From Agaricus subrufescens (lineage: Eukaryota; Basidiomycota; Agaricomycetes; Agaricales; Agaricaceae), in the NCBI GenBank assembly GCA_029945375.1, contig CM057058.1:1116001-1180000 (forward strand): a stretch of 64,000 bases of DNA, written 5' to 3'. The notes under the pieces are model-generated. The model searched no databases and was not told where the DNA came from. It saw only the letters and a program-made list of their open reading frames with translations. The position numbers and the translations under genes are program-made. Positions 27,371-55,487 of this stretch are shown one piece after another; positions within the stretch are counted from its first letter, which is position 1, and each line of letters begins with the position of its first letter.

Positions 27371-28356
27371 CACTGGGCCGGGGAAATAATAAGACACGTG
27401 TGTTATTGAAGTAGGATTAAATTATTATCAAACGCCAGATCCAAATAAACCAGCTGGATGATTGTGACAGTATTGTGACAGACGTCACAAATAGTACACT
27501 TGTATTATTAAGAACGTTTTCAAAGTTTATTGAGTGGTTGTGTAAACAAATAATTTCAAGAAATATTATTAATAATACATGTGGCTTATCCAAGCCTTAT
27601 ATTAACTATTTGCCCAAAACTATTTTGATAAGTCAGTGGACTTATTGAATCGAAATGCGAAGTTCATTTGGTTATTTTCTTACCTCTTATTCCATTAGTG
27701 CTTCAATAAGACGGTCGTTTAATTGAATATGACATGTGACCAAAGGTCACGTTAAGCAAAAGATTGACCAAGTCGCGAGTCCAACAATCGAGCGCGAGTC
27801 CAGCTGAGGCAGAATCGCGTCGACTGCTGAAATCGCGAGTCGGTTGAGCCACTCCCGACACGATTTTCGGAAAAAAAGATTCGAAGCAAATAAAATGACG
27901 GACCTTAGAATCGTCCTGATGAGCCATCTGTTAAGCGACTTTTGCACCTGTGTAAATCAGTTCAGCTCGACAGAAACATGAGTTAGATTGTCAAGAATCG
28001 TTAACGAACCTTAGTGAGGCTAAACTACTACGATTAATAGTACTAACGCTCCAGCCAAACAGTGGCAAAGCGAGCCTGCTCAGAGCGTCCGCTACTTCTA
28101 AGTCCACATCCACTCCTTCTCTTTCAAACGGTAAGCCCTACAGTGTAAACCATGACGGATGCGGCCAAGACCTGTGTCAGAAGTATGCATTCTACGCATG
28201 CCGAGCTATTTAGTGTTGACAGAGAAGCTTTTACAGGCCAAAACATAGAAGATTTGAGCGAAAAAAATGGAGCGCGGGGTGGAATACGGACCAAAGCGTG
28301 GCTAGATGCACTGTACAAAACAACAAACGCTGATCAGCCTTTTGTGAGCGAAGAGG
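27371..28356 (+). repeat. Left terminal inverted repeat, outer part
   Basis: It pairs with the reverse complement of about 54631-55487. It contains several imperfect palindromes built on AATAAG..CTTATT (27388-27407, 27571-27591, 27627-27650), probably transposase-binding subterminal repeats. It also has a cluster of TCGCGAGTC motifs near 27770-27845. Similarity to the right end stops at about 28356, and the rest of the repeat resumes at 30990. Confidence 0.8.
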
Positions 28357-28574
28357 AGATGAGCCCAAACTGTCCAGATGTCAACTCTGAAGTTTGGGAT
28401 GGGGATACATCGAATGTGGAGGACGACGAAGGCGGGAGTGATACATACGAGGAGCAAGGAGAGATTGTCGTTGGAGATGCAGATGAGAGCAGCCCATGCG
28501 AAGCACGAGAGAGGATCGAGGATACAGGTGGCGCCACCGACGAGGGCTACGAGGCCGATGAGGAGACTGAATGA
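28152..28574 (+). CDS. Acidic-tailed hypothetical protein, 140 aa
   Basis: The ORF begins inside the left inverted repeat and runs out of it. The first half (HSTHAELFSVDREAFTGQN) has a decayed counterpart on the minus strand at 54686-54904 in the right repeat. The second half is rich in Asp and Glu and ends YEADEETE. I do not recognise a domain. The start at 28152 is the first ATG. It may be the last exon of a larger gene. Confidence 0.4.
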   Translation: MTDAAKTCVRSMHSTHAELFSVDREAFTGQNIEDLSEKNGARGGIRTKAWLDALYKTTNADQPFVSEEEMSPNCPDVNSEVWDGDTSNVEDDEGGSDTYEEQGEIVVGDADESSPCEARERIEDTGGATDEGYEADEETE

Positions 28575-28974
28575 ACAGGTAAGTTGTGCCAGATTCACAG
28601 CGTCGGCGTACCTTACAACTTGCATACCGCCTATAGAGTTTTGAGGAATATATCGGCGCCACCCTTGTCTATGTGCCTTATCTCGGCTACTACTACCACG
28701 GCTTGTGAGAATCGCCAGCACATACGACGTTTTCTATCTAAAACACCAGACGCAGGCCGCTACATAGACGATCCATGATAAAAAATCGGACACGATTCGT
28801 GCTGCTTGATTTTGTCTCTGTAAGCTGAATGGGATAGGGCCCATAAGTTAAAAAAATTCCGGTCGATATCCTTGTCCTCTTCATTGACGTTATCCCACTA
28901 TCATATTTGCCGCATTGTCCACCCTGATTTACTGTAAGTCTAAATCAATGAATTGGGGGGATAGGAACATGGCT

Positions 28975-29860
28975 TCACCAACGCTGATATCTTGGACGCC
29001 GGCGAGATGGAAGCGACGATTGGCTCAACAGACCACCTCTAGAGCTTGCAAACCATGAGGTTGTTTGTCCACCTGACGGAGTTCGGGTCCTCCATATGGA
29101 TGTTGACGTCGCTGGCGTTGTAACCTGGGTTGAAAAGGCGAAGGCTGATGACATGATCAGTTCCTTCTTCACCAGCCATTGGCCTGTTAGCTCTGTGGAA
29201 ATCTTTGGGCATGCGCGTGTCCTAGAAAAGTTTGATCGCATCGTTAAGGTCTAATTGACCATCAGTGAAGCGGCTGTCCAAAAATAGATTGGTTGTGAGG
29301 AAAGTCTCGGTGTACTCAGCAAGGTAACAGTTGTTCCTTTATTTGAATTGTGGGTTGTTGGCAATGGAATATTGGAGACACTTGTATCTGAGCTCTCCTG
29401 CGACGGTGTAGTTGTTTCACAGCTTTGAGAGAAGATTTACCTCGTCCCAGAGAGTCTGGTTGGAATTAAAGTTGTCACCGAAGAATGTGTTATCTGAAAT
29501 TCGGCGCACGTTAGCTATATATCGAGATATCTAATTCCCAAACATACTTCAGGTCATACTGGCATCGCCCTCGAATAGTCCGTGGTGAACCAGGCCACCA
29601 AGGGTCACCAGTTGTTTCGGGTCGGGACTGGTCTTGGGCGACTTTTGACTGATGCTCAACAGGTTTGTAACGAGATTTCCATCAGCAAGTATGGCAGAGT
29701 ACGCGAGTTGCCTTGCGAGGATGGGCTCAGTATTGTATGCTGTGAGAGGGTTTCGGAGATGAAATGAGTAATTGTTATACAGAAGACAACACTCTCTCAC
29801 CTTCCATGACATCGTGAAGGAGTTGATCATTTACTCAAGTTGTATGATGGCTCCCTCTCT
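28975..29860 (-). pseudogene. Unspecific (aromatic) peroxygenase relic
   Basis: Read on the minus strand, conserved blocks of the heme-thiolate peroxidase family (Peroxidase_2) appear in order. These are LADGNLVTNLLSI, then GGLVHHGLFEGDASMT (the EGD motif near the heme), then a GDN..NQTLWDEVN block, and finally RMPKDFHRA and GYNASDV near the C-terminus. In-frame stops interrupt it, including a TAG just before DTRMPKDFHRA. The N-terminal part with the Cys ligand (PCP motif) is absent. Functional members are secreted oxidases of fungi; this copy is dead. Confidence 0.75.
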
Positions 29861-30989
29861 CCTTCACGATCTCTCTCCTTCTCTTTTCCCTTATCTCCAG
29901 CCGAATCAGGTGTAGAGGGTAGCGAGGAAAGTAGGGGAGGAGGATACTGAGACCCAGAATCGACATCGATAGACACTGTATCTCTTCCTGGAAAAGTGGA
30001 GGGTGTTTGAGTATAAATCTAGGTGGGGATGAGGTATTAATGGTCGTGATTGGAGAGGTAACGGACCCCTACTTTGGTCTCTATCTATATAACGGTTTCT
30101 ATCTCTATCACGATTGCGCTCTCGGTAGCCCCGATTTTTGGGATATTCTTGTCAATAGATAATCGGAGCATGGGATGGAGATCGTGGAGGCCTGTCTCTA
30201 AAGACATTTTTTCCTCTGTATGAAGAAGTAGCAGTAGACGGCAATGAACATTCACCAGTGTTATCACTTGCTTGGCCCAGCTCCTCCTGATACTGTGGGG
30301 GAATACCTGAATGACTGGTACCACATCGAGGAGCACCGTGATCATCTATAAAATATGTATCAGAAGCCGAGTCAGAATTCATGATGAATAGAGAAAGAAG
30401 AGAGCCAAGAGGATTTGTATGACCTTCAGTAATACTATTCCCAGGTGACCTAGGCCTAGAATATGTAGGGTTGATCCCAGCATTGGTGGGCCACAAGTAA
30501 TCAAGCGACTGCAATCACAGTTGCGATCACGAACCCCATTACGACCACCGAGAGGTATATGACAGTGAGGCACTTCACTAGGCGCTCACGTTGACCTGTC
30601 TGAAGTAGTTCTTGGAGTGGACATAACAGTAGGATGCTTTCCACTTTCTGCAGAGGAAAATCCGGAATAGTCATCAGTCATTGATATAGTTCGAGATGGA
30701 GATACCGACTTACGCCGAGCTAATAGCCATGTCCATCTTAGACCACGATATGAAGAGCCTGAGTAGTATGAGAAAAGATTATTGGATTAACCGAGGCAGG
30801 CCTTGAGAGTCATATTTGAGGTGCACGATTAGCCGAGGCAGGCCTTGAGAGTCAGATTTGAGGCACACTATAGATCAAGCTAGGGAAGCATGATCATAGA
30901 CAGGCATATTGACGGCTAGCAACCCACTTTTGCGGGGGCCTGTAAAGTTGGTATGTAGAGGCACGATTGGCCCGTCTACAGTACGATGG
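29861..30989. other. No recognisable gene; insertion between TIR halves
   Basis: Minus-strand ORFs at 30085-30573 are low-complexity and unrecognised. A 42 bp tandem duplication (GAGGCAGGCCTTGAGAGT unit) lies at 30790-30872. Confidence 0.5.
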
Positions 30990-31455
30990 AACACGGTAAG
31001 AGCTATTCCATACAAACTCAACAGATTGAACGCCAAGAAGGCCGCTCCTGTCCAGTGTAAAACGTAGCAAAGACAGTGGGTGTATCGTGGACATACGGAT
31101 TCTTAACAAGGAGGAAGGGAAAGTATTTACTCTTCCATAATCTCCCAGATTCGTCACGACTTCTGCTCATATCGGGTTACGATTGTGATCCTGGTCCCTA
31201 AGATTGGAATGTGTGGTCACGGTAACGTATTAGTAGACCTCAATATTTGGAAAGCAAAGCACAGACCTCAATATTTGAAAAGCAAAGCACAGACAGCTGA
31301 GATATGAACAAAAAGTGAAGGAGTGTTCAGCTTTAGAGCCGGAAACACATTAGGAATGATACCAAAGCAGTCTCCTTGCCCGGATTTTCACTGCGATCGG
31401 GTGAGTAGTCGAAAAACAGGCTACAGCGCCAGGACGCTCACCTTGATGAGCTGAC
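30990..31455 (+). repeat. Left terminal inverted repeat, inner part
   Basis: It is the reverse complement of about 54200-54630. It includes an antisense copy of the 3' end of the transposase gene (31400-31455). A 28 bp tandem duplication (AGACCTCAATATTTGGAAAG) at 31235-31290 is present only on this side. Confidence 0.8.
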
Positions 31456-32853
31456 TCCTGAGCCGTCTGCATAATCCGTCTTTGTTGATGCAAAATGACC
31501 AAGCACGTGATTTAAGTGAAGAACTACAGATGGAAGAAATCGTGAGCGGTACAAATGACCAGGAACACAAGAAGAATGCTGAGTGCGTTACAAATAACCA
31601 GAAAGAGAGAGGCCGCGTCTTTAAGGACAGTAAGGCCGATTGAGTGACAACGAAGCGTCTCCGTTAGGCGAATCGGTCTAGAGCATCCACCTCTGATCTC
31701 CCACATGGCCTAAGGGCTCCATGCCACGCAGCAAGTTGGTTCGGGGACTAAGGGTAAGGGCAAAGCTGAGCGACGCGTTTTGTCCACGATTTAGCAAAGA
31801 GGAAGGGTAAGGGCAAAGCTGAGCGACGCGTTTTGTCCACGATTCAGCAAAGAGGAACAGACAAGGGATTATATACTCGCCAAGACAACATATTGGGAGA
31901 GCGATATCCGCCGTGGGTGCACTAGGTGTGGCTGATGACTGCCCGGTATGTGTAAGAGACAACGGCTCAACTTAGCTAGTGTAGACGTTACTTTAGACAT
32001 TACTTAAAATCAGCACAAAGTCGGGTAAAGGCCACTGTCAATGACGCACCGTTTACGACTCTCGCAAGTCCCTCGATAGATGTAACTACTTCTTGAAACC
32101 CGCTGTCGAGCAATACTCCGGAAAAGCGGTGATACGGTATATGTGTGGGAGGACAGATAGACGACTCTTGTGTGGGAAGAACGATGATAGGAATGGCCGT
32201 CACAGACCGACGAGGGAAGGCCAGAGTGGCTATTCCAGATTGTTGGCTGGGGACTATTGTCGGTTTACCGGAGGAGCGGAGACTGGCTAACGTCTAACGT
32301 TTCGTATATCACTAGGGGTTCATCAGCGAGGAATACGCGTGAATGACGCACCTTGAGCAGATTGACTTAGGTCCGGAGTGAGATGCACGATTGTGAAAGT
32401 AGAGGCACGAGTGGCTCGTCTACAGCGCAATGGAAGGCCGGAAGGACCATTCCGCATTGGTTGACCGGGTGGAAGGCCAAGAAGGCCAATTCCCATCATG
32501 GTTGAGATAAAGGAGGAGTGAAGTAGAACGAAGCCCCGTTGAAGTTCGAATGGGTCAGTGGAGGATGCAGCATAGGTGACCGCTGTGGACTACAAGAGAG
32601 TGGAGCAGGAGCCGAGGAAATTACGGGTCATGTGCTCAAATTGGGAGGGATTCCCACCAGTCTCTATATACATTCAATCTGCGGGATGACCCGAATCTCA
32701 CAATTTCCGCCTCGGAGTCAACCAGGAGTGGGAATGAGGATTAATGTCCAATTTGAAAATGTTACAATTGCTACGATAGCAACAGCACTAGATTTAGCAA
32801 GGAAAGCAATGTGGAAATGATCTCATATGACAAGAATAAAATGCTCTCCGCAC
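31456..32853. other. No gene; tandem and palindromic repeats
   Basis: A 53 bp direct tandem duplication lies at 31751-31856 (unit starts AGGGTAAGGGCAAAGCTGAG). GGCC-N5-GGCC type palindromes lie at 32431-32453 and 32471-32494. The GTAGAGGCACGA block at 30954-30965 recurs at 32399-32410. No coding signal is seen. Confidence 0.55.
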
Positions 32854-33747
32854 TCAACAGGCATTGAACCTTGCAAAAAGCCTCGGAAAAAAGTAGAGGA
32901 TGGAGTACACCAACCACATGAACCAATTATTGGGTAACTGCCAATTCCCCTGTTGCAAGATCACATCACCCCTGAGAGCCTGGACTACACTTCTGAATAT
33001 CAGTTCTACATTTTGATCGGTTTTGGCAGACGTCTCTGCGAAAGGGCAGCCGAATAACTTTGCTAATCTGACTCCATCTTCTATTGACACTTCACGCTCA
33101 GATCCCATGTCAGACTTGTTGCCAACAAGGAAGAGAATTGGAGGACTTTGTACAGTATGCTTCACCATTTGATGGAACATTTCCAACCGTTGAAATGATT
33201 CTTGTGATGTAATCGAGTATACGAGGATGAAGGCCTGACCCTGCCTGGGGACCTACAGTCAGAGAAAATATAATGAATGAGAGGCGGCATGCATACCGGA
33301 TCCACTGGCTCCTCAGAGTGGCATAATCCTCTATGAGAAAAGAAAGATGTTTTTAAAATGAAATAAACTTCCTGCAGGCCACATACCTTGTCTGGCTGTA
33401 TCAATTACCTCCACCATACACGTACACTTGTCGACCATGAATTGTTTTCGGGAAGCGTCCTCAATTGTAGGATCATAGGTCTACCAGAGGAGTCAGCCAG
33501 ATGACATCTCATGCAAGTAAAAACTACTCAACCTCTAAAATTATGGTGAACAAATAAGAGTTAGCCTAAGTTCAACAGAACATTCAAAGGATACCATACC
33601 GAGGAATTGGTCGAAAACAAACTATGGTAGGGAGAAATAAATGAGATGGATGAAGAGAGAGGAGTGTCATTAACAACTCACTTGTGTAACCAAGGCAGAC
33701 TTTCCTACACTTCCATCACCGAGGACGACGATCCTCCAATGTTCCAT
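32854..33747 (-). CDS. Ras-like small GTPase with membrane tail
   Basis: The exons on the minus strand are 33682-33747, about 33595-33621, 33387-33480, 33297-33330 and 32854-33244, giving about 203 aa. G1 is GDGSVGKSAL at Ras positions 10-19. The effector loop is TYDPTIED. G3 reads DTARQEDYATLR, so Arg replaces the invariant Gly60 of DTAGQ. G4 is NKSD and G5 is ETSAK. The C-terminus has no CAAX box; it ends in a hydrophobic stretch (WFMWLVYSILYFF) and then FNAC, suggesting tail-anchoring instead of prenylation. The second-exon boundary is uncertain; a 2 nt exon at 33533-33534 would restore exact Ras spacing. The closest family is fungal Ras1. It is cargo of the transposon. Confidence 0.82.
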
Positions 33748-33870
33748 GTCACCCACAGTAGTGTTTGAAGCGAGCAGAAAATGGGGTGAGAAAAATGCAA
33801 TTTAAAGGGTTAGAATTATTCCTTATGCCAAACCAAACAACCCTGCAGCGGCGCAACCCGATTGTCAACC

Positions 33871-34055
33871 AAAGGCCTAACAGGCCATTTGTAACAGGGG
33901 TGACTGTACAGTCAGCCTTTCCGTCAATCAGAGGCCTAACAGGCCGTTCGCTGATTAAGGTATGCATGGGTGGTCATACAGTCTGCTTCTCGATCACACA
34001 CAAAGGTCCAACAGACCGTTTGTGAATCATGATAGGAAGGCCAAGATGGCCGTTC
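33871..34055. repeat. Cluster of four GGCC-N5-GGCC palindromes
   Basis: Copies lie at 33871-33891, 33930-33951, 34000-34024 and 34031-34055. Each has the form AGGYC, five bases, RGRCC, then RTT. The copy at 34000 shows compensating changes (GGTC paired with GACC), which preserves the stem. A 14 bp perfect palindrome TGACTGTACAGTCA sits at 33901-33914. The cluster lies between the Ras-like gene and the next gene. Confidence 0.8.
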
Positions 34056-34175
34056 AAGTACAGATAACAAACACTCTGAGTTATGTCCTGTAATAAGTTC
34101 CCACGATTGAAATGGGTCACATTCATATTATATATTGACGATTATCACTGATGCTAATCAAGAAATAGAAAACCG

Positions 34176-34888: not shown

Positions 34889-35289
34889 AGTTAAAATATA
34901 TGAATATCTATAGATTTAAACCCACTTATATATAAGCAGCACATCGAATCGCGAACAGATGAAAAAAACGGAGTGGTGTGATTCATCCCGGTGACTGAAC
35001 TAGTCTACAGTCGGCCCGTAGTCATGAGGTGAATACGTTACAACGGTAACATAGACTCTCCCCTGAAATAAAATTTTTTTTCTAAACGCAACAGACCGAA
35101 GCAGGGTCAGAGATGTGAACACACCCTCAGGGTGAATGGTTAGCCACTTCCACTTCTGCATTCTCTGGAGGGCCGAGTTCCATAAGAAGACTAAGGTTCG
35201 TTTGTTTAACACAGTGGAATATCAAGTTCCTCCGTTGACACAGCATCTAGGAATTACAACTTGTCAGACCGCATGTCATTCAGCAGGAA

Positions 35290-37219: not shown

Positions 37220-38386
37220 TTCAGTAAATAAGGAGGATCTCGCTAGGTCAAGCCTCGACTGCGCAAAATTTGAGCATTTGTCAGATTGTGTGAGACATAC
37301 TTTGAGGTTACTTACCATGAGAGTCGCCTCCGAGTGAAAAGACGAAGGTATGATAGGAGTGTGTACCAAAGGCGATTGGGGACCGTTCTTTGCAATGTTT
37401 AGACGGTGAAATGTTTTCAAGACGACACTTATACCTCTGAAACAATTCCACTCTGAGTCCAGAGCGTAAATCCGCCGCCCGAAGTAAACTGGAAGCCTTC
37501 AGACTGAACTGATTTGTGGAAAAATAAGGAGAAATCGGGTCAGCGAAACCAAATAAACATACAAAAGGCGCTGGGTATTTCCAACGGTGTGGCCAAGATT
37601 TGCGAATGATGCTCCAGTGACATAGACGTATCGAAGCAGAGGTAAATAGAATCGATAGAAAGAAAGTGTCAGTCAGTCTTCTAGTAGTGTCACATATCTG
37701 AGCTCGGCCACTAACCGGCTGATTCATTCCTCTTTTCGCCCCTCCGGTTTTTGCAGTAAAGTCCTAGTGATACCGAGGCAGACATTTGAACGACCCTTAT
37801 CGGATGGGTGGGACTTAGTCAGTTGGAGGGTCGCCATAAAAATTTGCTATAGAAAATTTTGCACTGCACACACAGATTACAAACTAGACCAAGAGGGGAA
37901 ACACAGCACGTCCTCGTGGGTCTGGGGTCTGGAAATTGCAACAACCGACAGCTAAAAAGGCCGACGTCCTTAAGAAGAGAGGCATCGAATCTGTGAGAGT
38001 CGGCGGTTGAGTCAGCGCATCGATTGAAGGTCCAAGAGACCATTCAATGTAACGTTTTAGAAGGCCAAATGGCCATTCCTAAACTTTCAAAGAGTGGAGG
38101 CCAACGTGGCCATCCATGAGTCCATCCTCAGCTTTCAACATGGAGGTAGTGGTTGATCGCATGCATATTTGGTAAATCGCACTCATATGGTCACAAGTGA
38201 CGATGTGTCACTATCACATGATTCGAATCGGCAAAGGCTATCATCTAAGATCTTTTATTTTCTAATGTTGGCCCTGCAACCAGACCCTGCGCAGGGTGCA
38301 ACATAAATTTAGCATCGGTGAACCTGGTAGTATGTTATATATATATATATATATAGATTCATCCAAGATTTGTCCGTTATAGTAGT
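37220..38386. repeat. Gene-free stretch with palindromes and (TA)n
   Basis: GGCC/GGTC palindromes lie at 38022-38048, 38058-38083 and 38093-38115. They are of the same family as at 33.9 kb; the first keeps its stem with GGTC/GACC. A (TA)10 microsatellite is at 38336-38355. The ORF at 37308-37727 on the minus strand is not supported by any motif. Confidence 0.6.
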
Positions 38387-38725
38387 TTATCCACCACGAT
38401 GCGCCTTCCTTCCCCTGTAAGTGACATACGATGCCCGCTTCACCCAACGAGGACCTTTGTCACAAATGTAACATACGTATACTTCGTTATCAATAACTTG
38501 CTGAGCATCACTAGCCTCTTCAACCACCGACCAAGAAACTCCCCTCTCACCCTCATTGATCCAAATTTGACGTTTTGTGCATTGTGAATTATTCACGGTG
38601 TCACAAATGTAGAGTGCCTTCAATGGGACTGGAATGCCTCTAGGAATTTTCGGTGGCTCTGAAATTGAGCCCGTTTGTTGATCGTAGAACCAGGTTTGCG
38701 GTGGTTTACCACCATACAACGACAT
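38387..38725 (-). CDS. Hypothetical protein, 112 aa
   Basis: The ORF starts MSLYGGKPPQTWFYDQ. It holds two CDxxx/CDKG-type Cys clusters (ALYICDTVNNSQC and VCYICDKGPRW). No family is recognised. It overlaps the 3' end of the next upstream gene on the same strand, so it could be its terminal exon after an unseen splice. Confidence 0.35.
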   Translation of the reverse strand: MSLYGGKPPQTWFYDQQTGSISEPPKIPRGIPVPLKALYICDTVNNSQCTKRQIWINEGERGVSWSVVEEASDAQQVIDNEVYVCYICDKGPRWVKRASYVTYRGRKAHRGG

Positions 38726-39346
38726 TTGTCGGGGGCGACGATAAGGTGATTTGCCAGGTCTCTAAAAGTGATATTGTCACGATCAAATTGAGGCAACAGA
38801 GCGAAAAGATCACTGACAATCTTTACATCGAATGGAATCAGGCCTACGTCCGGCTTACCATGCATCAGACGATTCTGTCATCGGAGGTTACTTATTCTAC
38901 TCAAAGGGGGAGGGATCATGCATACCTGAATGGGTTCCTCTTCATTGTCAGTTTCCGTGATGGTACTCATGTCCGATAGAGATCTCTCAAGACTATTTTG
39001 TGAGAGGTATGTGCTCAAGGGTCTCTGCCCTTGGCCTGTTCCTAAATTTCGTGATGGCAAAGTGACGTCACGCACGTTGACAGAGAAGTGAACTTTCTCG
39101 CGCGGGGGATTACGCTAATAAAAGGTCAGTAAGTGGTAAAGGCAGCATATGGACACATACTGTTCTCGTGTGCCAGCGGACAGAGTTGTTGCTGCTGAGA
39201 TGTATGTCTGTTTCGAGGAGACGAAGAGAGGATGAGGATGGATGATGGATCTCAGTTGATTTGGGCTGATCTGGGTCTGAGGATCGTTCAGTGATTAGGA
39301 AGAAATACTCCCCTCCCCTCTCAAAGTCAGTGGGTGTTGACTCCAT
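38700..39346 (-). CDS. Hypothetical cargo protein, several exons
   Basis: It starts at ATG 39346 (MESTPTDFERGGEYFF). The exon ends RWHTRT before GTATGT. The second exon (about 38934-39116) reads RNPPREKVHFSVNVRD through ETDNEEEPIQ. A short exon NRLMHG follows. The 3' end is ambiguous: splicing at GTAAGCC gives a hydrophobic tail (LCCLNLIVTISLL), while reading through gives FDRDNITFRDLANHL. No domain recognised. Confidence 0.4.
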
Positions 39347-39684: not shown

Positions 39685-40790
39685 CTATTTGATGGGTTCA
39701 ACATGAAGGCCAAGGCCATACAGACATGTCGTGTTCGAGCCCCAATTACTTAAGACCTCTAAAACAACGACATCGACCGGTTGAAATAACATAGACAAGA
39801 GGGAAGACGATACGTTAAAATATTGACGAGTTTGGGACAAAGTCTGATCGTAGGTTCCATTTATGAGCAATATGAAACGGTTATTGTGTTTCATATCAGA
39901 TGGGGGACTGGAGGATTTGAGAAAATTGGAGGCAGGTTTCCATACAGTGCCCTGGGGAATTGAAGCAGCATTGGGGTACATGCCCCACAGGGTAAATGAT
40001 TTCGGTGCCTTGGAAGCTGCAAGCGAAGAGAGGGTGCGACGATGAGCATGGAAAATGCTCAAAGAAGTAATGTGGCTCTTCTCGGAGAGGCAAGCCGCGA
40101 ATTGCCCCCTCGACCCAAGAAATTCCCAACAGTATGAAGTAGGGGCACCATTGAGTACATGGGAGGGAGGAACGAAAGCTCCCTTTGGACGCCAAACATA
40201 TTGAAGCAACCCACTCTGTTTGGCTTCATAAGTCGGGGAGGTGAGTGCCTTTACGTGTCGGGCACCATCTGCCCACAGGGCTACATTTCTTGGATGTGCC
40301 CCTTCAACTAAGGTAGAGAGGCTTTGGACATGGGCTTCAGCAGCTTCAAGACGCGAAGAGAGTGTGTTGAGGTGAGATTTTGGAAGAGGCTCCAACGTGC
40401 GATCAACGAAGTCGAGTTGTGATTCTAAATTATGGAGGTGTTGGTCCAATTGTTCCAGAGAATGCGTTAACGATCCCACGGCGCAAAGTTGAGCACTCTG
40501 ATTCGTGAACACGTATTGATCAACAAAGGAGGGAGGTACAAGGCCGAGGTCAGTGATAATATGAAACATCACGGCAACGGTGGTGATGAACATAGCCAAG
40601 GACCAGAGGAGTAGGCTGAGGCGAGTGAGGTGGGAGACTCCACGCCAAACCTGCAAATGCGAGGTCAATCATGATCTGATTAAAATAACAGGCTTGTTCT
40701 ACCATACCAAAGAGTCGGGCTCTGGAGCAGGACGTGGTTCCCTGGTGGCCTCGTTCGAGGGAAAGAAAAGTTCAGTAGAGCGTGTTTGAC
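39685..40790 (-). CDS. SUN-domain protein (Sad1/UNC-84 type)
   Basis: The main exon 39685-40650 is open, with an in-phase splice to an upstream exon ending at 40708 (RPAPEPDSL). The 5' start is unresolved, because no in-frame ATG lies between the upstream stop and that exon. One membrane helix (SLLLWSLAMFITTVAVMF) is followed by a helical coiled segment (LEQLDQHLHNLESQLDFVD). A C-terminal SUN domain follows: NVALWADGARHV, CWEFLGSRGQ, APKSFTLWGMYP, and VVLEVLSNWGSNTTCLYGL. SUN proteins sit in the inner nuclear membrane and form LINC bridges. Here the gene is transposon cargo; host SUN genes are normally elsewhere. Confidence 0.8.
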
Positions 40791-41354: not shown

Positions 41355-42792
41355 ATGTCGACCTCCTACACTATGCTTCGCTACTCACTCGAGAAAGAGC
41401 TCACATTGGATGGCCGGGTACACGCACTTGCGTTTTCCCCCAGTGGTCAGTACTTAGCGGTTGCGTTAAATGATCGAGTCTGTGTTTGGGAGACCACGAC
41501 TTGGGCTCTTGACTTGCGTTTTTATCGAGACTCCGTCCGAATACTATCCGTGGCCTGGAACGTCAACAATCAGCTTTTCTTTGGCTGTGATAGAGGCTTT
41601 CTAACCATGGTCTCTTGGGAGCAAACGGTTTGTGGATGGACTATCATCCTACATGGTACTTATGGCCGTCCATTGCAGGAATATCATTCTCAAGGGTTTC
41701 GCGCCTCTGAAATGGAAATTCGTTTCATAGCAACAAGTACCGATACTCGCTATCTTGCATTAGGAGGTGGTGGTGAAGTAACAATCTGGGAAATGGGTAA
41801 GTGTATCATTCACAAACGCAGTCCGAAATTCAAAGCTGTCTCTCAGTTGGCGACGAAAACTCTAGACCAAAATGGGTGTTTGTCAGAAAGTTGGATGATC
41901 CTCAAGACCACTACGACAAAACAAACGTGAACGTCACTGGGATCGCTTGGGCCAACAAATCGTCACTTGCCTTGGTTGTCTCCTACGAAAGACAGGATGT
42001 TGTGTAAGTTGTTCCAACTTGATCTGATCTTTGGACCTCATGGCTTCCTGTAGAACATGGGATGTCAAAACGGGCCTTATTCTTTTTATGGCTGGACAAA
42101 TTCCGCAGCAGGGCTCAGTCGGTCCTCGTATCGACGCACCACAGATCATTATCGACAGTGGCCCATATTTCGCAATTCCGTCTGGGGGTGAAATACGCGT
42201 GTATGATCGGCAGAGTGGGAGAGTTTATAGGTGCCTCTATCCCCCTGCAGTTATCCCTCACCAGTCACCAATTATATGGGCACACGAGGGATCATGTATC
42301 ATCGCTGCGCTCGAGTCTGAAATAGTTCTCTTGCATATTGAGAAGCGACGAAAGACAGTGTTGAATATCGAAGGTGGGCACCTGAACTCTCTAGCAATTT
42401 CTTTTCTCATTATAATTTGCAGAGTGTTGCCATATCACCCAGAATGTTACCAATATAGCCGTGAGTTATATCTCATAACTGTTACTTCTGCAAAGCCTCA
42501 ACCCTTCCAACTCGGATCACTTCAGTGGAATAAAAGCTTAGGTGATCAGGATAATTTTTTTTATCGGATAGCCCTGGTTACGAATCGTAACAATCTCAAT
42601 ATTGTACGTGCTGACGGTGCGTACAAGCTTGCTGTTTCCTCTGAAGCATTGAAGTTTGACCTTACCCTCATAGCACCTTTACCCAGGGAGCGTAAACCAA
42701 AATACCACTTATGCCTTTCCTTCAAGCTTAATTGTGGGCTTGCTTTTCTTCTTGTCACGGCGCTGTATCTATACATTCGCATCTTTATATAG
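41355..42792 (+). CDS. WD40-repeat protein with C-terminal membrane helix
   Basis: It starts at ATG 41355 (MSTSYTMLRYS). Exon 1 is 41355-41796 and exon 2 is 41847-42003; exon 3 starts at 42054. Two further 45-50 bp introns probably lie near 42374-42421 and 42463-42498. WD-like blades are visible: VHALAFSPSGQYLAVALNDRV, CVWETTTW, YLALGGGGEVTIWEM, VTGIAWANKSSLALVVS, VTWDVKTG, GEIRVYDRQSG. The last about 20 residues (LAFLLVTALYLYIRIFI) form a membrane segment. The protein is probably a tail-anchored beta-propeller facing the cytosol. Partner unknown. Confidence 0.72.
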
Positions 42793-43103
42793 CTTATACT
42801 AGCTGTTCAATTAGCACGTACTCCGCGACATACCTATCCAATTCTCTCTCTTTTGTCGTAGAGCCAATGATATCGCACGTGCACACTTAGCTCCAGCTTA
42901 GCTCCCACTGGTGGAGGGCCAGCTTGGTTAATGATCGCATCTTAGTTTTCCATATGAGGTAGGCCGCTTACACCTACACAAGTCACGTAAGGTGTGACGA
43001 CTAGTCATCACTTTTTCTTCCTGGAAGTGCATCTCTGAAGGTAAGTGCATGCAAGCGCGTGTCGTAAATTAATCAACATGGTCAATGAAATTATGAATGA
43101 TAG
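42793..43103. other. Intergenic
   Basis: Nothing recognisable. Confidence 0.4.
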
Positions 43104-45338
43104 ATGACTATGGATGAACGACCACGCGATTGTCATGGAGGCACCGTGTATCAACCGTTTGCCCGCCCAGGAGATGGTGAGCCCTCTTCACCTGTTTTGT
43201 TCCATTCGAAAACATACTCACAGTAAATCTTAACGCTAGGGACTATACGAGTCTCTGACGCACTACTCATTAGTGAACTAGACTCCACATACCTGTCCGC
43301 TGACAACAAAAATCATCACTCGTGCAAGGGTGAAAGGCTCGTCATCAGTACTCCTAATGCTGACTACCTGCCATACGTTAACCTTGGAACACAAGTAATC
43401 TCTATGTGTGTCGACGGAAGATGGGGGGCGGAAGACTGGGCTCAATGGCCACAATGGTATTTCGATGGTCAAGAACATTTCCCCTATGTCCTCCGAAAAC
43501 CTGCTGGGAAGGACCTCAAATTGCATCCTCTTCGTTGTTTATGGTACAACATATCTGAATCCGATTTTCGCTTGGACCCAGGATCGAAGTCATTCGGCTT
43601 GCTAATACCCCAAATTGCGGAGGAGTTGCACGATATTCGCGTGAATCTGATGAAAGAGGTTGAAGCTTGCGTTTGCAGCAATGGTTCAGACTATCAGGAT
43701 CTCCACAACTGTGCCACGAAAATGCGTCATTGTATATCTACCCTTTGTTTTACGCCTCAACCCTTCACTGGTGTCCATCTCACGACCGTCGCTGCTCAGT
43801 GATACTGTCTGGAGTTACGAGCAATGTTGGATAGGATCGCGATCCGTAGGAAAAGCCTGTCTTCTTCCGACTCACAGTCCACCTCTTCGTCAGGCGGATC
43901 CCTTGCTGTTGATAATACTCGTCTCGGTTGCATAACCGACCGAGTCTCCGTTCTCTGCGAGCTGCATGAGAAAGGAATCCCGGTTTGGTATGTACGCCCG
44001 TCGTCGGAAGTACCCCTCAGCACGACTATCGTGATGCAGTCGCCTGTGATTCGACCTATTCATCGTGGAATTGAGACGAAACGTTGGCCTGGTGCGCTGA
44101 TATTCTATCAAGGGCCCCTCTCACGGCAGATCCATGCTGGTATTGAGCAATGGAAACCCGGTAACCTTCAACTCAATTTGCTTGGTCGAGGTTCCGAGAC
44201 AGAGTCAACAGCCTCGGAGGTTCAACGTCAGAACGCAAACAAAAGATCAGATTCCTCTAAGCCATGTGAGCAGTTCTCTACTTGTTTTCCAGGTCAGAAT
44301 CTGAGCGTTATCATAGATTCAAAAGAAAAAGCTATTGCGCGAATGCAGCTCAAAAAACCTAATATATCAGTGAATCTTGATCTATTCAAGGACCTCGACA
44401 CACCTAATCTCCCGAAGCTCATTGAATCTTGGAAAAAGGCACTCACAGAAGTCAAGGTCGACATCATGCGTGTGGTCGACCACCCTGACGTCAAGCTCTT
44501 TCGAGGATTTGCCTTCCCACCTCATAATATATTTTCTGGAGACGACAAACAGAGGAACTTGGAACACATGCTCGGTTGGTTAATTGTTCGGCCCTCTTGG
44601 ATGAGCAGCTTCGGTGACTCTTCGCATCCGGCACCCCTCCCTAATGCCCAGCAATGGCGTACCTATCTCCGTGGAGTAGCCTTAGATCTCGAACTTCTCC
44701 AGCTGGATAATCGTTACCAAGCTTCGGAAGCTCCTGCAGTGGACGCCACTCGTTCGACCTGTCGGGGTGGCAAGCTAAAGGCGGCAGCTAAAGCAATTTT
44801 TGTTCAAGTCCTGCCAAGAAAAGAGGACGTACAGGTGCTTATGTGGAATGATCAGATTGTCTGGCGCCGTGTGGGTGGACCCGATTTCTCTGCTGTAGGC
44901 CGTCGGCAACTTATCTGGGATACTGAAGAACACAGTTTTCGCGCCGAGCTGACGACCCTCGACCACCTTATAATGAGGTCGATGTGGGATACTGATGAAG
45001 GGAGCAAGATTCGATCTCAAAAAATAGGTGACATGTGGCCTGATGGCGGTGTTGCAAGTCTGTCACTACCGAGCGAGTCGACCGGGGTTGCTGCCGAAGA
45101 TTGGCTCAAAAGATGTGTGTACGTGGAAGCATTTCAAAGCATTGTTGCTGATTGGCCTGGGCATATACCCCGACTACTGGCTCAGCTGCCATTTTCCTCA
45201 ACTGTGAACGGGCAAAAACATTGGGACCAGCCAATGATGGAGAAAGTTGAAGGGCTTGCTGCTAGCCATTATTGTCAAGCATTCTTTGATCATTTCGGTA
45301 GAGCTCCTTCTCTTCTGCGTATATTCCCAGTCAGTTAG
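43104..45338 (+). CDS. Large hypothetical cargo protein
   Basis: Exon 1 is 43104-43176 (MTMDERPRDCHGG). Exon 2 opens at 43240 and stays in one frame to 45338, except for a TGA at 43800-43802. A 51 bp intron between CCCTTCACTG and CAATGTTGGA would remove the TGA without a frameshift, but its acceptor (GAG) is weak. The first part contains VISMCVDGRWGAEDWAQWP. After the TGA comes AIRRKSLSSSDSQSTSSSGG, IPVWYVRPSS, NLEHMLGWLIVRPSWM and EDVQVLMWNDQIVWRRVGG. Total about 725 aa. I do not recognise a named domain; such long unknown proteins are common in Agaricomycetes. Confidence 0.6.
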
Positions 45339-45420
45339 ATCATTTGTTTGTAGTTGTTGCTATCATGCTCCGTCTTGTTACTCATGTCACAGTAACCCAA
45401 TAAATCTCGTGTTCATCCTT

Positions 45421-45764
45421 CTACCATCAGCGATGCAAGCAAACCGATCCTCTTTAGATTGCTATGCCATCCAGGCGTATCAAAACACGAAACGTCGAAG
45501 CTTTCTTAGCCGACATTTCATTATGCATCTTGTTTTTTCAACAGTTGCGCTATCCTTCGACAGGGTCCCACCAGCAGCTCGCGTTTATCCTTCTACCATC
45601 AGCGATGCAAGTAAACAGATCCTCTTTAGATTGCTATGCCATCCAGGCGTATCAAAACACGAAACGTCGAAGCTTTCTTAGCCGACATCTCATTACGCAT
45701 CGTGTTTTTTCAACAGTTGCGCTATCCTTCGACAGGGTCCCACCGGCAGAAATTTTTTCAACAA
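45421..45764 (+). repeat. Tandem duplication, 172 bp period
   Basis: Two nearly identical 172 bp units (CTACCATCAGCGATGCAAG start at 45421 and at 45593) differ by a few bases. The ORFs over it just repeat the same peptide and are not thought to be genes. Confidence 0.85.
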
Positions 45765-45971: not shown

Positions 45972-47052
45972 ATGGAATCTATAGAGCAGATTGAACAGCG
46001 GCTCATACAAGTGGAAGAAGAGGTCTCAGCGATTGGGGTTACACAAAGGTTGTAGAAGAATACAGTTGAGAAAATTTCGGTCTGTGTTCTCATCTGAAAT
46101 GTGAAATGTCACATTCATAGTCATTGCTTAGGCCGATCACAAGGATGATATCGAAAGTATCATAGAGTCTGTTCAAGGGGCAGTTGAGGCAATCGAGTTG
46201 AAACTACAGACTACCAGTCAACATTTTAATCGGCTCCAGATTGATCTACGTGATATGCGAGATGCATTGGAACGAATGTCGCGTGAACTGGAGGATGGCA
46301 TTACCAAGCACCTTGGTGATATCATTGGATCCCTTGGTCAACAACAATTACAGGCCCAGGCGATACATTATAGTAAAGCTGATGAATTGATCGAAATGGT
46401 TCAGGAATCACTGATGACTCGAGTTGAAGAGAGGGAAGAATTTACAGAGTTTAGGTCCCTCATCGACGCCCAACTGGCTACTATCACTGGCATCTGTAAT
46501 GGCTTGGAGCATATACTTCAGGGACTTTCGGACAACATTCTCTATCGCATCCCATCTGGTTTACAGCAGCTTGACATTAGTCCACTTGTGGAAACTATGG
46601 ATGCAAAAGCTTCCAGAACAAATGGTCAGTACTTGCCTATGATTGGAATCCGCTCTGTTTAAATTGCATCATTAGAGTCTTCTGTTCGCAGCGAGCAAGC
46701 CTTCCGCTGGCTCCATTCGAGGGACGTTTTCAATGTCATATATTCTGGTTTCCACAAACCCTGTGTGTCCTCTTTACTTCTAACAGATGTGTCGATTTAC
46801 TTGTTCGCAGGGCAGCTCATTGTGACATACACTGATGTTTTGCTAAACTGTATCTTGGAACATAATTTCTCATACGAGAAAATTGCTTACCTCTTTGATG
46901 TTTCTCGGGCAATTGCCATTAACTTATTCGACCGTGCTTGCTTGTGGTTTCCGTTTCTTTCTGCCATCATGATCTTTTTTATATTCAAGTCCATTCTTGC
47001 CGATGACAACGATCAGTCCCTGTTGTATCATCCAACTTTATCTTATATCTAG
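45972..47052 (+). CDS. Coiled-coil protein with possible membrane tail
   Basis: It starts MESIEQIEQRLIQVEEEV (45972). After an intron near 46040-46130 the main exon (about 46133-46623) is strongly helical with heptads: DDIESIIESVQGAVEAIEL, LRDMRDALERMSRELEDG, and LGQQQLQAQAI. A later exon has a hydrophobic stretch (FLSAIMIFFIFKSIL) near 46960-47010, but its frame connection is uncertain. Its layout, soluble domain plus tail helix, is like the Ras-like and WD40 cargo genes. Confidence 0.5.
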
Positions 47053-47299
47053 ATATATCTTTATCGGTGGTTCCGTAAACGTAGTATGGTGTGATACTAC
47101 CATATCTTGATGATGCAATTCTGACTATGGAACATTTTTTAGGCGACCGAGAACTGATTTTCACGCCTGAGGTCGGAGCTCCGACTGTATTACCGAGCCT
47201 ATTTTGGTTGTGCAAACCTGGCCAGGGAGCGGAAGCAATCATTCCCTCGTCACATAGGCCGAAATTTTTTCTTTCTTTTCCATCTTTACACCTTTCGCC

Positions 47300-50021: not shown

Positions 50022-50128
50022 ATTTGGCCACGTGTTGAATTTTGCAACGGCCTTTTTTCCCCGTGATATATGTTTACTTAGAAATACAACATCCGATTTT
50101 ATTCTTTGTTTTTGCTCATTAATGCTCA

Positions 50129-53100
50129 ATGCGGCCGCCAACCAGGCAAATTGCGGAAGAATCCAACCGACCTACTGTCCTCCAGTGGATTACCGACACG
50201 GAGCAGCGGTTATTGCGACGCAACGTTGCTACCCTCAATGACAAACTCCAGTCATCATCATTTCGCTTCGAAGTTCCTCCTGCAGCGTGCTCCTTGGTGG
50301 AGTCCCTTGTCCCAAATGACAGTCTCAAACTCATTGTAGGGGCACCGAGTAATACCTTGGCTCTTTCGCACGGGGATTGGCTACATTCTTGCATTGATTT
50401 AGTCAACCATTATATGGTCCAGTATGCAAATGATACCAAGATGGTCTCACTGCTCGACCATCTATTGTCTGCCCTCCAAGTAGACCTGGGTTGCCTCAAA
50501 GATATCAAGCGCAGAGAATGGGAAAGGCAAAGAATTGTGTCCCAGGAAGTAAACAGCATTGATCCTGGTAAGTTGGTCGTATGATTTTCCAGTTCTCACT
50601 CTCACCTTATTTACACGAAGGTGTTTATATGACTTCTCCACTCTTAAATATGGAGACCTGGGCTGCGGTGGCTTACGTCGCCACTTTATGCCTTTACCTG
50701 TCCACTGGTGTTTCTCAGGCACAATGCGGTTTCTATCTTCTGGCGTTCAGTCTGTTGGGTAATACTCGAGATACAATTACCAACCCCCTCACGCAACCCC
50801 TCCCCACCATACCAACCACCGTCGAAACACTCGTCATCCGATCCAACATTGAACCTAAGGCCAAATCTTATGTATGCTGCCCTCGGTGCTTCCGCTTATA
50901 TAAACACGAAACTTGTCCAGATACTTGCAACCATACGGAGTTTCCGGGTGGACCTGTATGTGAAGCGGCTCTACAACAGCCGAGTGGCAAGCCTATTCGC
51001 GAATATCTCATGCAAGAATTCAAGGATTGGTTAGCACGACTTTATGCCCGTCCCGGACTCGAAGCACTCCTAGATTGCGACGTCCTTGGCTCGTCTGCAC
51101 CAGAGAGGATGTCTGACATCTGGGACGCTCCTGTCTTAAGAGAGTTCGAACGCAATGGAAAGGTTTTCCTGCGAGACAAAGGAAGTGATGGCCGCCTAAT
51201 TTTCAGCATCAACATGGATGGATTTAATCCTTATGGAAACAAGCAGTCAGGAAAGCATGTCAGCACCAGCACAATATATATGACGTGTCTTAACCTTCCC
51301 CGCGCGCTTCGTAATCGCATGGAAAATGTTTTTCTGGTTGGCGTAATACCTGGTCCCTAGGAACCTTCTGTCCTGCAAATCAATAATCTCCTCGAACCCC
51401 TTGTTGACGAACTTTTGCAGCTTTGGGACATAGGGATGTATCTCCGTCGTACACCAGGGTATTCAGCTGGCAGAAGAGTATTTGTTGCCATGATTCCCGT
51501 AGTGGCGGATCTTGTCGCATCGAAGAAAATGGCGGGATTTGGAAGTGCAAGATCACGCCACTTCTGCTCACATTGCTTCACCACACTTGGTGATATTTCT
51601 AACTTCAATCTTCACTCATGGGAGAGGCGAATGAAGCAAGATCACGTCAAGCAAGCAGAGGAATGGAAGACTGCAAAGACCAAAGGAGAGCAAGATGATG
51701 TGTTCAATCGGTATGGTTTGAGGTGGTCGCAGCTGCTACGTCTTCCATATTGGGACCCGTGTTCCCATGTGGTTATTGATTCAATGCATTGTTTTTACCT
51801 TGGCCTGTTCCATCGTCACGCCGTCAAAATATGGGGAATGGATGCTACAATGGAGGACGGCAATGGCGCTACATACCGAAAGCTGATCAAAGTTCCTACC
51901 CAATCGGAATACGACCATGCCCTGAAGGTTTTCCTGGATGGCAATTTCAAGAAGCTTCGTCATGAGAAATGGCATATACTAGCTCATCTGTGTGATAGGC
52001 TTGGTCTTCACTTTGGCGGCACGAAAGAGACCTTGTTATCAACTCTACAACAGGTATGACTTGACTACTTATCATCTGATATATCACTGAAACGACACCG
52101 GTAGTATCGAAATCAGCAAAACTTAGGAGGCGCCGGTACACCTCAGGGAGTACCGCAGCTTATTTCCGAGTCGTGTACGAGTATAGTAAGCGTACCTGCT
52201 AAGAAATTTCGGTCTTTAGAACTGACATCATAGGACAGGACTTTCATTCCCCCCACGCTATGATTGTGGATGAAGCACCGAGCGCTACCGATGCCATGAT
52301 CGTAGATGAAGCACCGAGCGCAACTGACATCATGATTGTGGATGAAGCACCGAGTGTACTGGTAGATCAAACCTCTGCACAAGACGAAATTCGACATTTA
52401 TGGGCAACCGCTTCTAAGTCAAAATGGCTACAACTGAAAAAGGAGAAGTTAATTGAGACATTAAGGATTATGAAACCCGAAGAGATGTTGGCCAGTGGCA
52501 CGAAAGCCCAATTGATTACAATTATTCAGAAATGGGTAAGCGTCGAGCATCCAAATGTCGTTCTGTTACTAAGTTAATGAACAGCGCCGTGTAGATGGCA
52601 TTATTGATGAGAAAGAGAAAGTCGTCGGGGCGAGAACAGGGGAGCGAACGCAGAAAAGCACCTCCAGCACCGCTGCTAAAGCAGTTCATACTGTGGATCT
52701 AATCGATGAGCTTGAGTGCGAATTTCGAGTAATGAGGATGACGGAAGTAGATACATATGAACCAAGACAGGTAATTTTCCTACATGTAATCATTAATGGC
52801 TTACTTAAATATCAAAGGCAGGTGCACGGGGGCCAAAGGCCAAGGTCCAAAAGAGAGCAAAGCCGGCTGACGCAGAGCGAACCTATCTACCCGGCAATTT
52901 GGGAGCTGAGATGCCAACAGCGCCGAGGACTCGAAAGGGGACAAAGACATGTGTCCTAGGTAAGAAGACAATTGCAGAGATCCAAGAAGATATGCAATGT
53001 CTCTGCTTACCGTCCTGGGTTTCGAAAGGCCCAGCTCATCCAGGTCAAGCAAAGGGTGGTAAATTGCATGCAGACCAATGGCGTTCGTTTTTTACCATCA

Positions 53101-54260
53101 ATCTCCCTGTCACCCTCACTCGGCTGTGGGGCGCGGCCCCTATCGAAAGTCGTCAAGCCAAAATTCTGGAAAATTTTCTTTACTTGGTCAGCGCCGTCAA
53201 GGTCACTTCACAGCGTACCATATCCGAAGAAGACATTGTCTTGTATGAGAAATATATGCTCAATTACCTCACTACCTTATGGGATTTGTACCCGGGTATT
53301 GAACTTGTGCCGTACCAACATATTGCTTTACACTTTGGTGATTTCTTGCGCTGCTTTGGCCCTACCCATGGGTGGAGATGCTTTTCATTCGAACAATACA
53401 ACTATCTTCTCCAACAGATGCTCACGAATCAATTAATTGGTATGTTTATCTGTACTATAGCCAGCAAATCAACTCATTCGCTCACAGGACAGATGGAGAA
53501 GACTATGTTCCGAAAATTCAGTATGTTGCAGAATCTACGCATACTTATCAACACACATCATCTTCCGGAACAACTCCATCCCCTTATAGCAGCATACGAT
53601 CAGTCATTCAATGGTGATACGCGAGGAACTCTTCTAAGCGAAGATTTATACAGCGCCAGAATTGATGAAGGTGTGGGCATGGAAGAGAATGTCAGGCTAC
53701 AAAGTTTTGTTTACGCCTTGGTAAAGGAGTGGGTAAGGACGCACGATCATCGCGACATCGTCGAATTCGAGGACAAGGTACGCCAACTACAGGTTGTCTC
53801 GACGGACGTGACATACAAGACTGCAAATCGCTCTTCTGGGGACAGCCAGATAGTATTCCGTCCACTGGGACAAAATTCACCCTTCGACTGGACTACAGGT
53901 TTGCTTAGGCAGATATTTACTCATCAACGAAACATGAAGAACGCTGGTTGGATATCCGACACCTTCCTCCTTGTCTCACCCTATGAATATGCAAATTTGG
54001 AACCAGAGATGCAAGACAAATCAGTTCTGTGGCCTTTCATTCACACTCAACATTTTTCTTCTGTTCCTGGTCATTTGTACCGCTCACAATTTCTTCCCCC
54101 TGTAGTCCTTCACTTAAATCAAGTGCTTGGCCATTTTGCATCAACAAAGACGGATTATACGGATAGCTTGGGAGTCAAGATTTTTCAAGCTATTCCTCTC
54201 ATCAAGGTGAGCGTCCTGGCGCTGTGGCCTGTTTTTCGACTACTCACCCAATCACAGTGA
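50129..54260 (+). pseudogene. Tnp2-type (Transposase_21) transposase with one TAG
   Basis: Exon 1 starts at 50129 (MRPPTRQIAEESNRP). The second exon has the zinc-like cluster YVCCPRCFRLYKHETC, then NMDGFNPYGNKQSGKHVS and ENVFLVGVIPGP. A TAG at 51358-51360 interrupts the reading before EPSVLQINNLLEPLVDEL, and the frame then continues. Next come RRVFVAMIPVVADLVASKK, FCSHC, and LLRLPYWDPCSHVVIDSMH. Three 36 bp repeats (MIVDEAPSATD) start at 52260. The C-terminal part has LPSWVSKGP, GKLHADQWRSF, WRCFSFEQYNYLLQQ and GQMEKTMFRKF. The order matches fungal Tnp2 transposases of the CACTA superfamily. Its last exon enters the right inverted repeat. With the TAG the full enzyme is not made unless read through. 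Confidence 0.82.
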
Positions 54261-55487
54261 AAATCTGGGCAAGGAGACTGCTTCGGTATCATTCCTAATG
54301 TGTCTCTGGCTTTAAAGCTGAACACCCCTTCACTTTTTGTTCATATCTCAGTTGTCTGTGCTTTGCTTTTCAAATATTGAGGTCTAACAATACATTACCG
54401 TGGCCGCGCATTCCAATCTTAGGGACCAGGGTCACAATCGTAACCCAATATGAGCAGAAGTCGTGACGAATCTGGGAGATTGTGGAAGGGTAAATACTTT
54501 CCCTTCCTCCTTGTTAAGAATCCATATGCCCACGATGCGCCCACTGTCTTTGCTACGTTTTACACTGGACAGGAGCGGCCTTCTTGGCGTTCAATCTGTT
54601 GAGTTTGTATGGAATAGTTCTTACCGTGTTCAATCTCGCTTGCAAAAGGTTGGTCGTTGTTTTTTGTTTTGTGTCGTATCTCTAATCATGCTTTGGCCTG
54701 TATCCCACCCCACGCCCTGTCTTTTTCACTCAAATCCTTCCCTTTTTGGCCCGTAAAAGACTCTTTGTCAACGGTAAGTAGCTTAGCGTGTGTAGAATAC
54801 ATACCTCTGACATAGTTCCTGCATTGATTTGGCCTCACTAAGGTTTGTTGATGATTTTTGACGGTCTTGTTTCCATTTAACTGACCTGATTTACACAGGT
54901 GCACAAGTCGTTTTGATAGACAAATTATTGTCCCAGACCAGGGGGACGATTCTAAGGTCTGTCATTTTAATCACCTCCAATCTCTATTTCTGAGAATCAT
55001 GCTATTAGTGGCTCAATCAACTCGCAATTCCAACAATCGACACGATTCTGCTTCTGCAGACTCGTCCTCGATCGTTGGACTCACGATTTGCATAACGTGA
55101 TTTTTTGTCACATGTGATATTCAATTAAGTGACTGGCTTATTGAAGCGCTATTGGAATAAATAGGTAAGAAAACAACTAAATAAGCTTTGTATCTTTATT
55201 CAATAAGTCCACTCCTTTATCAAAATAGTTTTGAGGGAAAAGTTAATGCAAGGCTTGGATAAGCCAAGTGTACTATTAATAATATTTTTTGAATTTATTT
55301 GTTTACACAACTGCTTGATAAGACTTAAAAACATTTTCAATAATACAAGTGTACAATTGTTTATTATTTGTGATGCTCGTCACAATATGGTCACAATCAT
55401 CCAGCTGGCTTATTTGGATCTGATGTTCAATAATAATATAATACTATCTCAAAAAGGCAAGTGTCTTATTGTTTCTCCGGCCCAGTG
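54200..55487 (-). repeat. Right terminal inverted repeat
   Basis: It is continuous over about 1.29 kb, beginning at the 3' end of the transposase gene and ending CCGGCCCAGTG. It matches 27371-28356 and 30990-31455 in reverse. AATAAG-type palindromes recur at 55200-55222, 55255-55276, 55338-55360 and 55455-55473. Many CpG sites of the left copy are TpG or CpA here. Confidence 0.8.

Follow-up and report, generated by a model that had tools for sequence, protein, structure and literature searches.

A probable giant CACTA-like transposon lineage with a four-gene core in Agaricus subrufescens

DNA transposons of the EnSpm/CACTA superfamily are defined by termini of the 5'-CAC..GTG-3' type (PMC12730594). 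In the same account, the wider CMCT clade (EnSpm, Mirage, Chapaev, Transib and kin) has CA..TG ends and target-site duplications of 2-5 bp; Plavaka, a member of that clade, has TGT..ACA or CATCA..TGATG ends and duplications of 2-3 bp; and a TET/JBP gene is retained by DNA transposons of fungi from more than one superfamily, among them EnSpm and Plavaka (PMC12730594). Enlarged En/Spm elements of 16-20 kb with 4-5 open reading frames are described from Chondrus crispus (PMC6431247), the nearest size precedent in print that we found for this transposase class. Giant fungal elements carrying many genes are known as Starships, which are classified by their tyrosine recombinase (PMC12134995; see also PMC12289983, PMC11623301). 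Eight Starships of 41,942-605,797 bp are reported from the basidiomycete Tremella fuciformis (PMC13066641), and giant size alone is therefore no novelty among basidiomycetes. The largest element in a transposable-element library from Marasmius is about 42 kb (PMC9674265), so large elements may sit unremarked in such libraries. Here we describe a block of 28,117 bp from Agaricus subrufescens, found in a 64,000-nucleotide stretch of contig C2 (G000:C2:1116001-1180000, hereafter the window), as a candidate giant transposon whose ends and transposase resemble those of EnSpm/CACTA.

The block and its boundaries

We put at close to nine in ten (0.88) the probability that the block is an old, probably immobile copy from a giant cut-and-paste lineage of CACTA/EnSpm type with a core of four genes. 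The sequence evidence for such a lineage comprises terminal inverted repeats (TIRs) beginning CACTGG, a tnp2 transposase, 4-bp target-site duplications, uninterrupted paralogous sites, and near-identical sister copies of 55-62 kb at unrelated sites. All comparisons were made within one assembly of 44.65 Mb in 44 contigs, cited as C1, C2 and so on. The boundary features, in window coordinates, are as follows.

27371..55487, putative giant transposon (G000:C2:1143371-1171487), 28,117 bp, delimited from its ends, duplication, an uninterrupted paralogous site and a homologous copy on C9
27367..27370, left target-site duplication, TACT
55488..55491, right target-site duplication, TACT
27371..28024, + strand, left TIR, 654 bp, 76% identical to the right repeat
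54828..55487, - strand, right TIR, 660 bp
30985..31585, + strand, left copy of a subterminal inverted block, repeating the 3' end of the transposase region
54044..54635, - strand, right copy of the subterminal inverted block

The terminal 11-mer CACTGGGCCGG is present just twice in the window, at 27371(+) and, in the opposite orientation, at 55487(-). An earlier, sequence-only reading of the window had picked out these inverted ends, the TACT direct repeat at both edges and the interruption of a tandem NACHT array, and all three hold; NACHT/NPHP3_N genes lie on both sides, and the block splits their array. It had also reported more than 1.2 kb of inverted similarity. Such similarity is present, but as two blocks rather than one: the true terminal repeat aligns over 654/660 bp at 76%, and a second, non-coterminal block of about 600 bp, 86% identical, lies 3615-4215 from the left end and 853-1444 from the right end.

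A genome-wide search with a pattern for the opening 30 bases of the ends, allowing up to two mismatches, gives 23 matches and, for the reversed pattern, none, by which we reject a chance origin of the ends. Six convergent pairs stand on single contigs, spanning 61,775 bp (C1), 54,743 bp (C5), 28,315 bp (C9), 28,117 bp (the window), 3,522 bp (C12) and 1,557 bp (C5). The two largest lie at C1:907423-969197 and C5:2832624-2887366. A seventh, putative pair spans two contigs, with its left end on C10 and its right end on C2, both next to AATA. Exact 4-bp duplications flank five of the seven pairs (TACT, TATA, CCTA, AATA and TATA), one of the five being the cross-contig pair; CCTA belongs to the 28,315-bp element. 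TATA makes up 9 of the 17 flanking 4-mers, a count that comes without a background rate.

Two of the pairs deserve separate mention. The 1,557-bp element (G000:C5:32282-33838) has ends of the same type and exact TATA duplications, and is probably a non-autonomous relative. The left end at G000:C10:2166736 and the right end at G000:C2:3516507 have AATA in common, and their flanks, once joined, align with a single uninterrupted locus; they are apparently a single insertion split by rearrangement or misassembly. The C10/C2 insertion adjoins a NACHT-like frame (G000:C2:3516508-3516911, assigned by eye), as the window insertion lies among NACHT genes, a setting that may reflect target preference or the abundance of such genes.

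Transposase and conserved core

The genes that recur from copy to copy are four.

50129..54257, + strand, tnp2-type transposase in two stretches (about 50129-52574 and 52644-54257), with a stop codon at 51358-51360
39688..40668, - strand, SUN-domain protein, an intact frame of 327 aa, PF07738 at 45 bits (cut-off 22)
41355..42800, + strand, WD40-like protein in several exons, limits drawn by conservation between copies, PF00400 at 32.8 bits (cut-off 27)
43227..45335, + strand, the protein designated P511, with a stop codon at 43800-43802 in the window copy

The sequence-only reading placed a Tnp2-type transposase and a companion gene at one end of the block. The transposase is recognized through the homologous copy on C1, whose N-terminal stretch matches PF02992 (Tnp2) at 4.5e-13 and 49.3 bits against a cut-off of 28.6. 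The companion is probably the C-terminal half of the transposase, the two stretches forming one gene, because it lies directly downstream of the N-terminal stretch in the window, C1, C5, C29, C18 and C9 and carries candidate H-x3-H and E motifs. Candidate NMDGFNP, VIDSMHC, H-x3-H and CF.FE motifs, assigned by eye, are found in both the window and the C1 copy. A C(2)C motif was not found in its described place; the only C-x2-C motif examined, CSHC, precedes the second D candidate. In three near-identical sister copies, on C1, C5 and C29, the N-terminal match runs without a stop.

A Pfam scan of the 103 stop-to-stop frames of at least 75 aa in the element, at E 1e-4, returned only Ras, SUN and WD40-type families; the earlier labels for these three genes hold, each above its cut-off. 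The SUN protein resembles SUN1/SUN2 chains, with a best E of 2.5e-9. For P511, no Pfam family passes its cut-off and the PDB yields no relative at E values up to 1; its structure, predicted without relatives, has a mean predicted local distance difference test score (pLDDT) of 32, too low to serve for a structure search. A viral origin of P511 and the transposase was considered and rejected: patterns from each matched two stretches in viral contigs, and tblastn confirmed none of them.

Genome-wide protein searches gave 34 match rows for the transposase, 27 for SUN, 50 for P511 and 34 for the WD40-like protein, which were merged by hand, dropping second pieces of one gene, to 32, 25, 27 and 20 loci respectively. 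Chaining at 35 kb yields 43 clusters, of which 15 contain all four genes, seven contain two or three, and 21 contain one. By transposase score the 15 four-gene clusters represent 10 types; they are not independent, because several share identical scores and some lie in a segment duplicated between C1 and C2. That segment, about 150 kb with two four-gene clusters, occurs as inverted copies with identical match scores (G000:C1:1338-1488 kb and G000:C2:752-902 kb), and is either a segmental duplication or two haplotypes in one assembly.

The four genes recur as a group even between loci with up to 56% transposase divergence, across three subfamilies that are bands of transposase identity to the C1 query (69-100%, 50-53% and 44-46%) rather than branches of a tree. 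Every transposase locus of at least 44% identity (18/18, leaving out two second pieces and one 52-residue match) has a core partner within 35 kb. All 20 WD40-like loci stand beside a SUN locus, with the two genes divergent in each case. Core clusters hold 20/20 WD40-like, 20/25 SUN and 22/27 P511 loci, two of the P511 loci being stray fragments joined by chaining. P511 follows the WD40-like gene in the same direction in the window, in the C9:2548-2558 kb cluster and, mirrored, in the C2:886-902 kb cluster; its orientation is reversed in the C1 and C5 copies.

Window genes were compared with their counterparts on C35, C8, C4, C1, C5, C29, C10, C18 and C9, in comparisons of at least 40 codons. 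Ratios of nonsynonymous to synonymous divergence (dN/dS) are 0.17-0.26 for SUN, 0.09-0.24 for the two stretches of the transposase and 0.09-0.33 for P511, whose first stretch shows saturated synonymous divergence against C1, C5 and C29 and so has no ratio there. By these values, SUN, P511 and the transposase are under purifying selection. Because the C35, C8 and C4 copies carry stops in P511 or transposase frames, the ratios average over decayed time. Synonymous divergence of the three genes rises together, from 0.47-0.65 to C35, through 1.02-1.35 to C4, to 1.42-2.35 or saturation to C1, as expected if they had travelled together. The window copy itself is probably immobile and dead, since it has in-frame stops in both transposase and P511.

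These results bear on the alternative that an ordinary CACTA element happened to bracket host genes, with SUN, WD40 and P511 as recent passengers. Five SUN and five P511 loci outside core clusters speak for it, and the five SUN loci may be host genes. The Ras-like gene also fits it: among elements it occurs only on C2, C9 and C4, plus fragments of 27-28 residues on C8 and C35, and its best match outside the core clusters, at C1:4607190, is 59% identical. Chance bracketing is hard to reconcile, however, with the presence of SUN, WD40 and P511 next to the transposase at 15 loci that span three identity bands, with SUN and P511 synonymous divergence of the same order as that of the transposase, or with the location of all 34 WD40-like match rows in clusters containing SUN. 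We disfavor this alternative as very improbable. Most of what had been read as cargo is, by gene content and conservation between copies, a constant core of transposase, SUN, WD40-like and P511 genes. The Ras-like gene is an accessory one, seemingly acquired from the host; its relatives in the C9 and C4 elements are 88% and 57% identical.

The remaining features of the element are these.

32968..33747, - strand, Ras-like GTPase gene, accessory, with introns, PF00071 at 82.3 bits (cut-off 21.6) on 32968-33240, and motif positions
38345..39322, - strand, segment with protein-level conservation between copies, the scanned frame 38390-38761 showing no known domain
46132..46659, + strand, coiled-coil-like open frame

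The last of these was earlier labeled a coiled-coil gene; the frame has that character, but its Pfam hits are all sub-threshold. A 36-base tandem repeat lies in the transposase region (window 52252-52359) and a 172-base tandem duplication follows P511 (window 45406-45749). Outside the element, within the NACHT array, is an open Copia-type gag-pol frame of 1,474 aa (window 14821-19242). Together with the NACHT/NPHP3_N genes and a weak similarity to Plavaka, this polyprotein would fit a basidiomycete of the mushroom type.

Evidence for movement of the whole unit

The sequence-only reading suggested looking for the same block elsewhere, and the C9 element supplies it. That element carries Ras, SUN, WD40-like, P511 and transposase genes in the same order and relative orientation as the window, with identities to the window of 89% for SUN, 87% for the WD40-like protein and 87-90% for P511; its transposase is 70% identical to the C1 query. 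The notion that the C9 element holds different cargo was rejected when protein searches found SUN, WD40-like, P511 and transposase genes there.

Recent movement is indicated by the larger copies, which were compared in pieces rather than whole. In 15 blastn comparisons, 13 between putative sister copies give 99.66-100% identity, and two between different subtypes give 89% and 97%. Pieces from inside the C1, C5, C29 and C10 elements are 99.81-100% identical, and element ends, including the one at C2:3516507, are 99.66-99.83% identical between copies. All six pieces compared between C1 and C5 match, one piece pair having its first 552 bases unaligned; a C29 piece aligns over 4567/4902 bases. The 7,032-bp difference in length between the C1 and C5 copies is consistent with an insertion or deletion. 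Homology breaks off within 4 bp of the element end for C1 and C5, for the left end on C10 and for the right end at C2:3516507. The near-identity of copies of 54.7 and 61.8 kb in the pieces compared, together with homology that stops at their ends, points to a giant unit that moved recently. Units that bear the transposase and reach 62 kb are found inserted with a 4-bp duplication.

Queries made by joining the flanks of an insertion with one copy of the duplication were used to look for empty sites, and the sites found are paralogous, not allelic. For the window, 400 bases from each side joined by one TACT give uninterrupted matches at C9:842164-842978 and C6:1121094-1121908 (77%, query 1-799); for the C10/C2 insertion, the flanks joined by one AATA give such a match at C10:2414112-2414917 (87%, query 1-800). 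In base-level alignments of the C9 and C10 sites, both flanks meet within a few bases of the junction.

Spread of the large copies by segmental or haplotype duplication, in place of transposition, would find a parallel in the mirrored segments C1:1338-1488 kb and C2:752-902 kb, and in the NACHT-type loci of C10 and C2, which are paired with equal scores. Such duplication would carry homology on into the flanks; in the C1, C5, C10 and C2:3516507 copies homology goes no further than the TIR, and there are target duplications, so this origin is refuted for copies with unrelated flanks, as seen at these four ends or copies, and is, overall, also very improbable. Least probable of all is that two unrelated ends or nested small transposons mimic one large unit: unpaired ends, the existence of the well-formed 1,557-bp element and the 552 unaligned bases lend it something, but C9 shows the same overall layout at 28.3 kb and has a duplication of its own, C1 and C5 match in every piece compared and stop at their ends, and the paralogous sites are uninterrupted.

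Several observations weigh against the reading of a giant CACTA-like lineage and are gathered here. The flanking 4-mers disagree at the large C5 pair (TATA/TAAA) and at the small C12 pair (TAAA/CATA), and 9 of the 23 ends are without a partner, two of these facing outwards on C30. The duplication is not present once in exact form at either aligned paralogous site: at the window's C9 site, TACT lies in a 4-base alignment gap and the single TACT that had been anticipated is lacking, and the C10 site matches three of the four bases of AATA. The Pfam scan did not find PF02992 in the window copy's own interrupted frames, and nothing in the C8, C35 and C4 copies matched the N-terminal half of the transposase. 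A core partner is missing at 14 transposase loci, 13 of them at 41% identity or less and one a 52-residue match at 48%. The selection figures cover three of the four core genes, SUN, P511 and the transposase, and the two distant subfamilies, with clusters such as those at C2:4447-4462 kb and C9:2548-2558 kb, would be TIR-bounded units to judge by their gene order. A further check, for cargo genes outside such ends, gave the result described above, with most loci clustered and five SUN and five P511 loci elsewhere. Even so, none of the checks run refuted the proposal of a giant DNA transposon; it is supported, with the amendments that most of its cargo is a conserved core and that this copy is probably dead.

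In the giant-transposon reading, the tnp2 transposase would bind the repeats, excise the whole element and insert it elsewhere. More speculatively, the SUN/WD40/P511 module might act on the element's own behalf: a SUN protein of the inner nuclear membrane, together with the WD40 protein, could for instance anchor or position the element or its nucleus. Ras-like and similar genes might be passengers acquired from the host. A broader proposal, which we consider unlikely though worth stating, is that these elements belong to an ancient class of giant transposons of fungi that has a core genome of its own; in it SUN, WD40 and P511 would act at the nuclear envelope, either placing the element or favoring the carrier nucleus in a multinucleate mycelium; such elements would also acquire host genes, and would have arrived at a Starship-like lifestyle independently, with a tnp2 transposase. 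The main reading, if correct, poses a testable question: why does a transposon keep a SUN-domain gene under selection?

Comparison with described elements

Maverick/Polinton elements are characterized by a protein-primed polymerase and a retroviral-type integrase. No such polymerase or integrase family was found in the 103 scanned frames, shorter exons falling outside the scan, and a Maverick identity was rejected. Plavaka shows weak transposase similarity, in that PF18759 scores 17.6 bits on the window frames and 20.5 bits on the C1 copy, both below the cut-off of 26.3; the ends described for Plavaka differ from the CACTGG ends seen here, as does the length of the duplication, 4 bp here, and a Plavaka identity was likewise rejected. 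The TET/JBP-carrying transposons resemble the present element in retaining a cell-type gene inside a fungal DNA transposon; the gene here is another one, with no TET/JBP family among the same scanned frames at the same threshold.

The closest likeness is to EnSpm/CACTA, in the CACTG-type ends, the long TIRs and the tnp2 transposase (PF02992). Termini of the 5'-CAC..GTG-3' type are present as CACTGGGCCGG at both ends, and tnp2 is recognized by way of the C1 copy. The duplication is 4 bp, exact in five of seven pairs, where 3 bp is usual for EnSpm/CACTA, and for this reason we call the element CACTA-like and not a plain member of EnSpm/CACTA. It differs further in size, the four large copies that have both ends spanning 28-62 kb, and in its constant SUN, WD40-like and P511 genes. 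The CA..TG ends and the 4-bp duplication fall within the range described for the CMCT clade. Among the titles and abstract openings listed in searches of the open-licence PMC literature, we found no giant CACTA-like element with SUN/WD40 genes.

With Starships, to which the block had been formally likened, the element shares its character as a giant fungal unit with many genes. The likeness is one of style: here there is a tnp2 transposase with TIRs and a constant core, and not a tyrosine recombinase. No family of tyrosine recombinase captains was found in the scanned frames at E 1e-4, with shorter exons again outside the scan, and a Starship identity was rejected. In the papers cited here, giant gene-carrying fungal elements are tyrosine-recombinase Starships, mostly of ascomycetes, with one basidiomycete report (PMC13066641). 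If our reading is correct, such size is not exclusive to recombinase elements; a family using TIRs and a transposase would move 28-62 kb with a fixed set of cell-like genes, and would be a second kind of large gene carrier in fungi.

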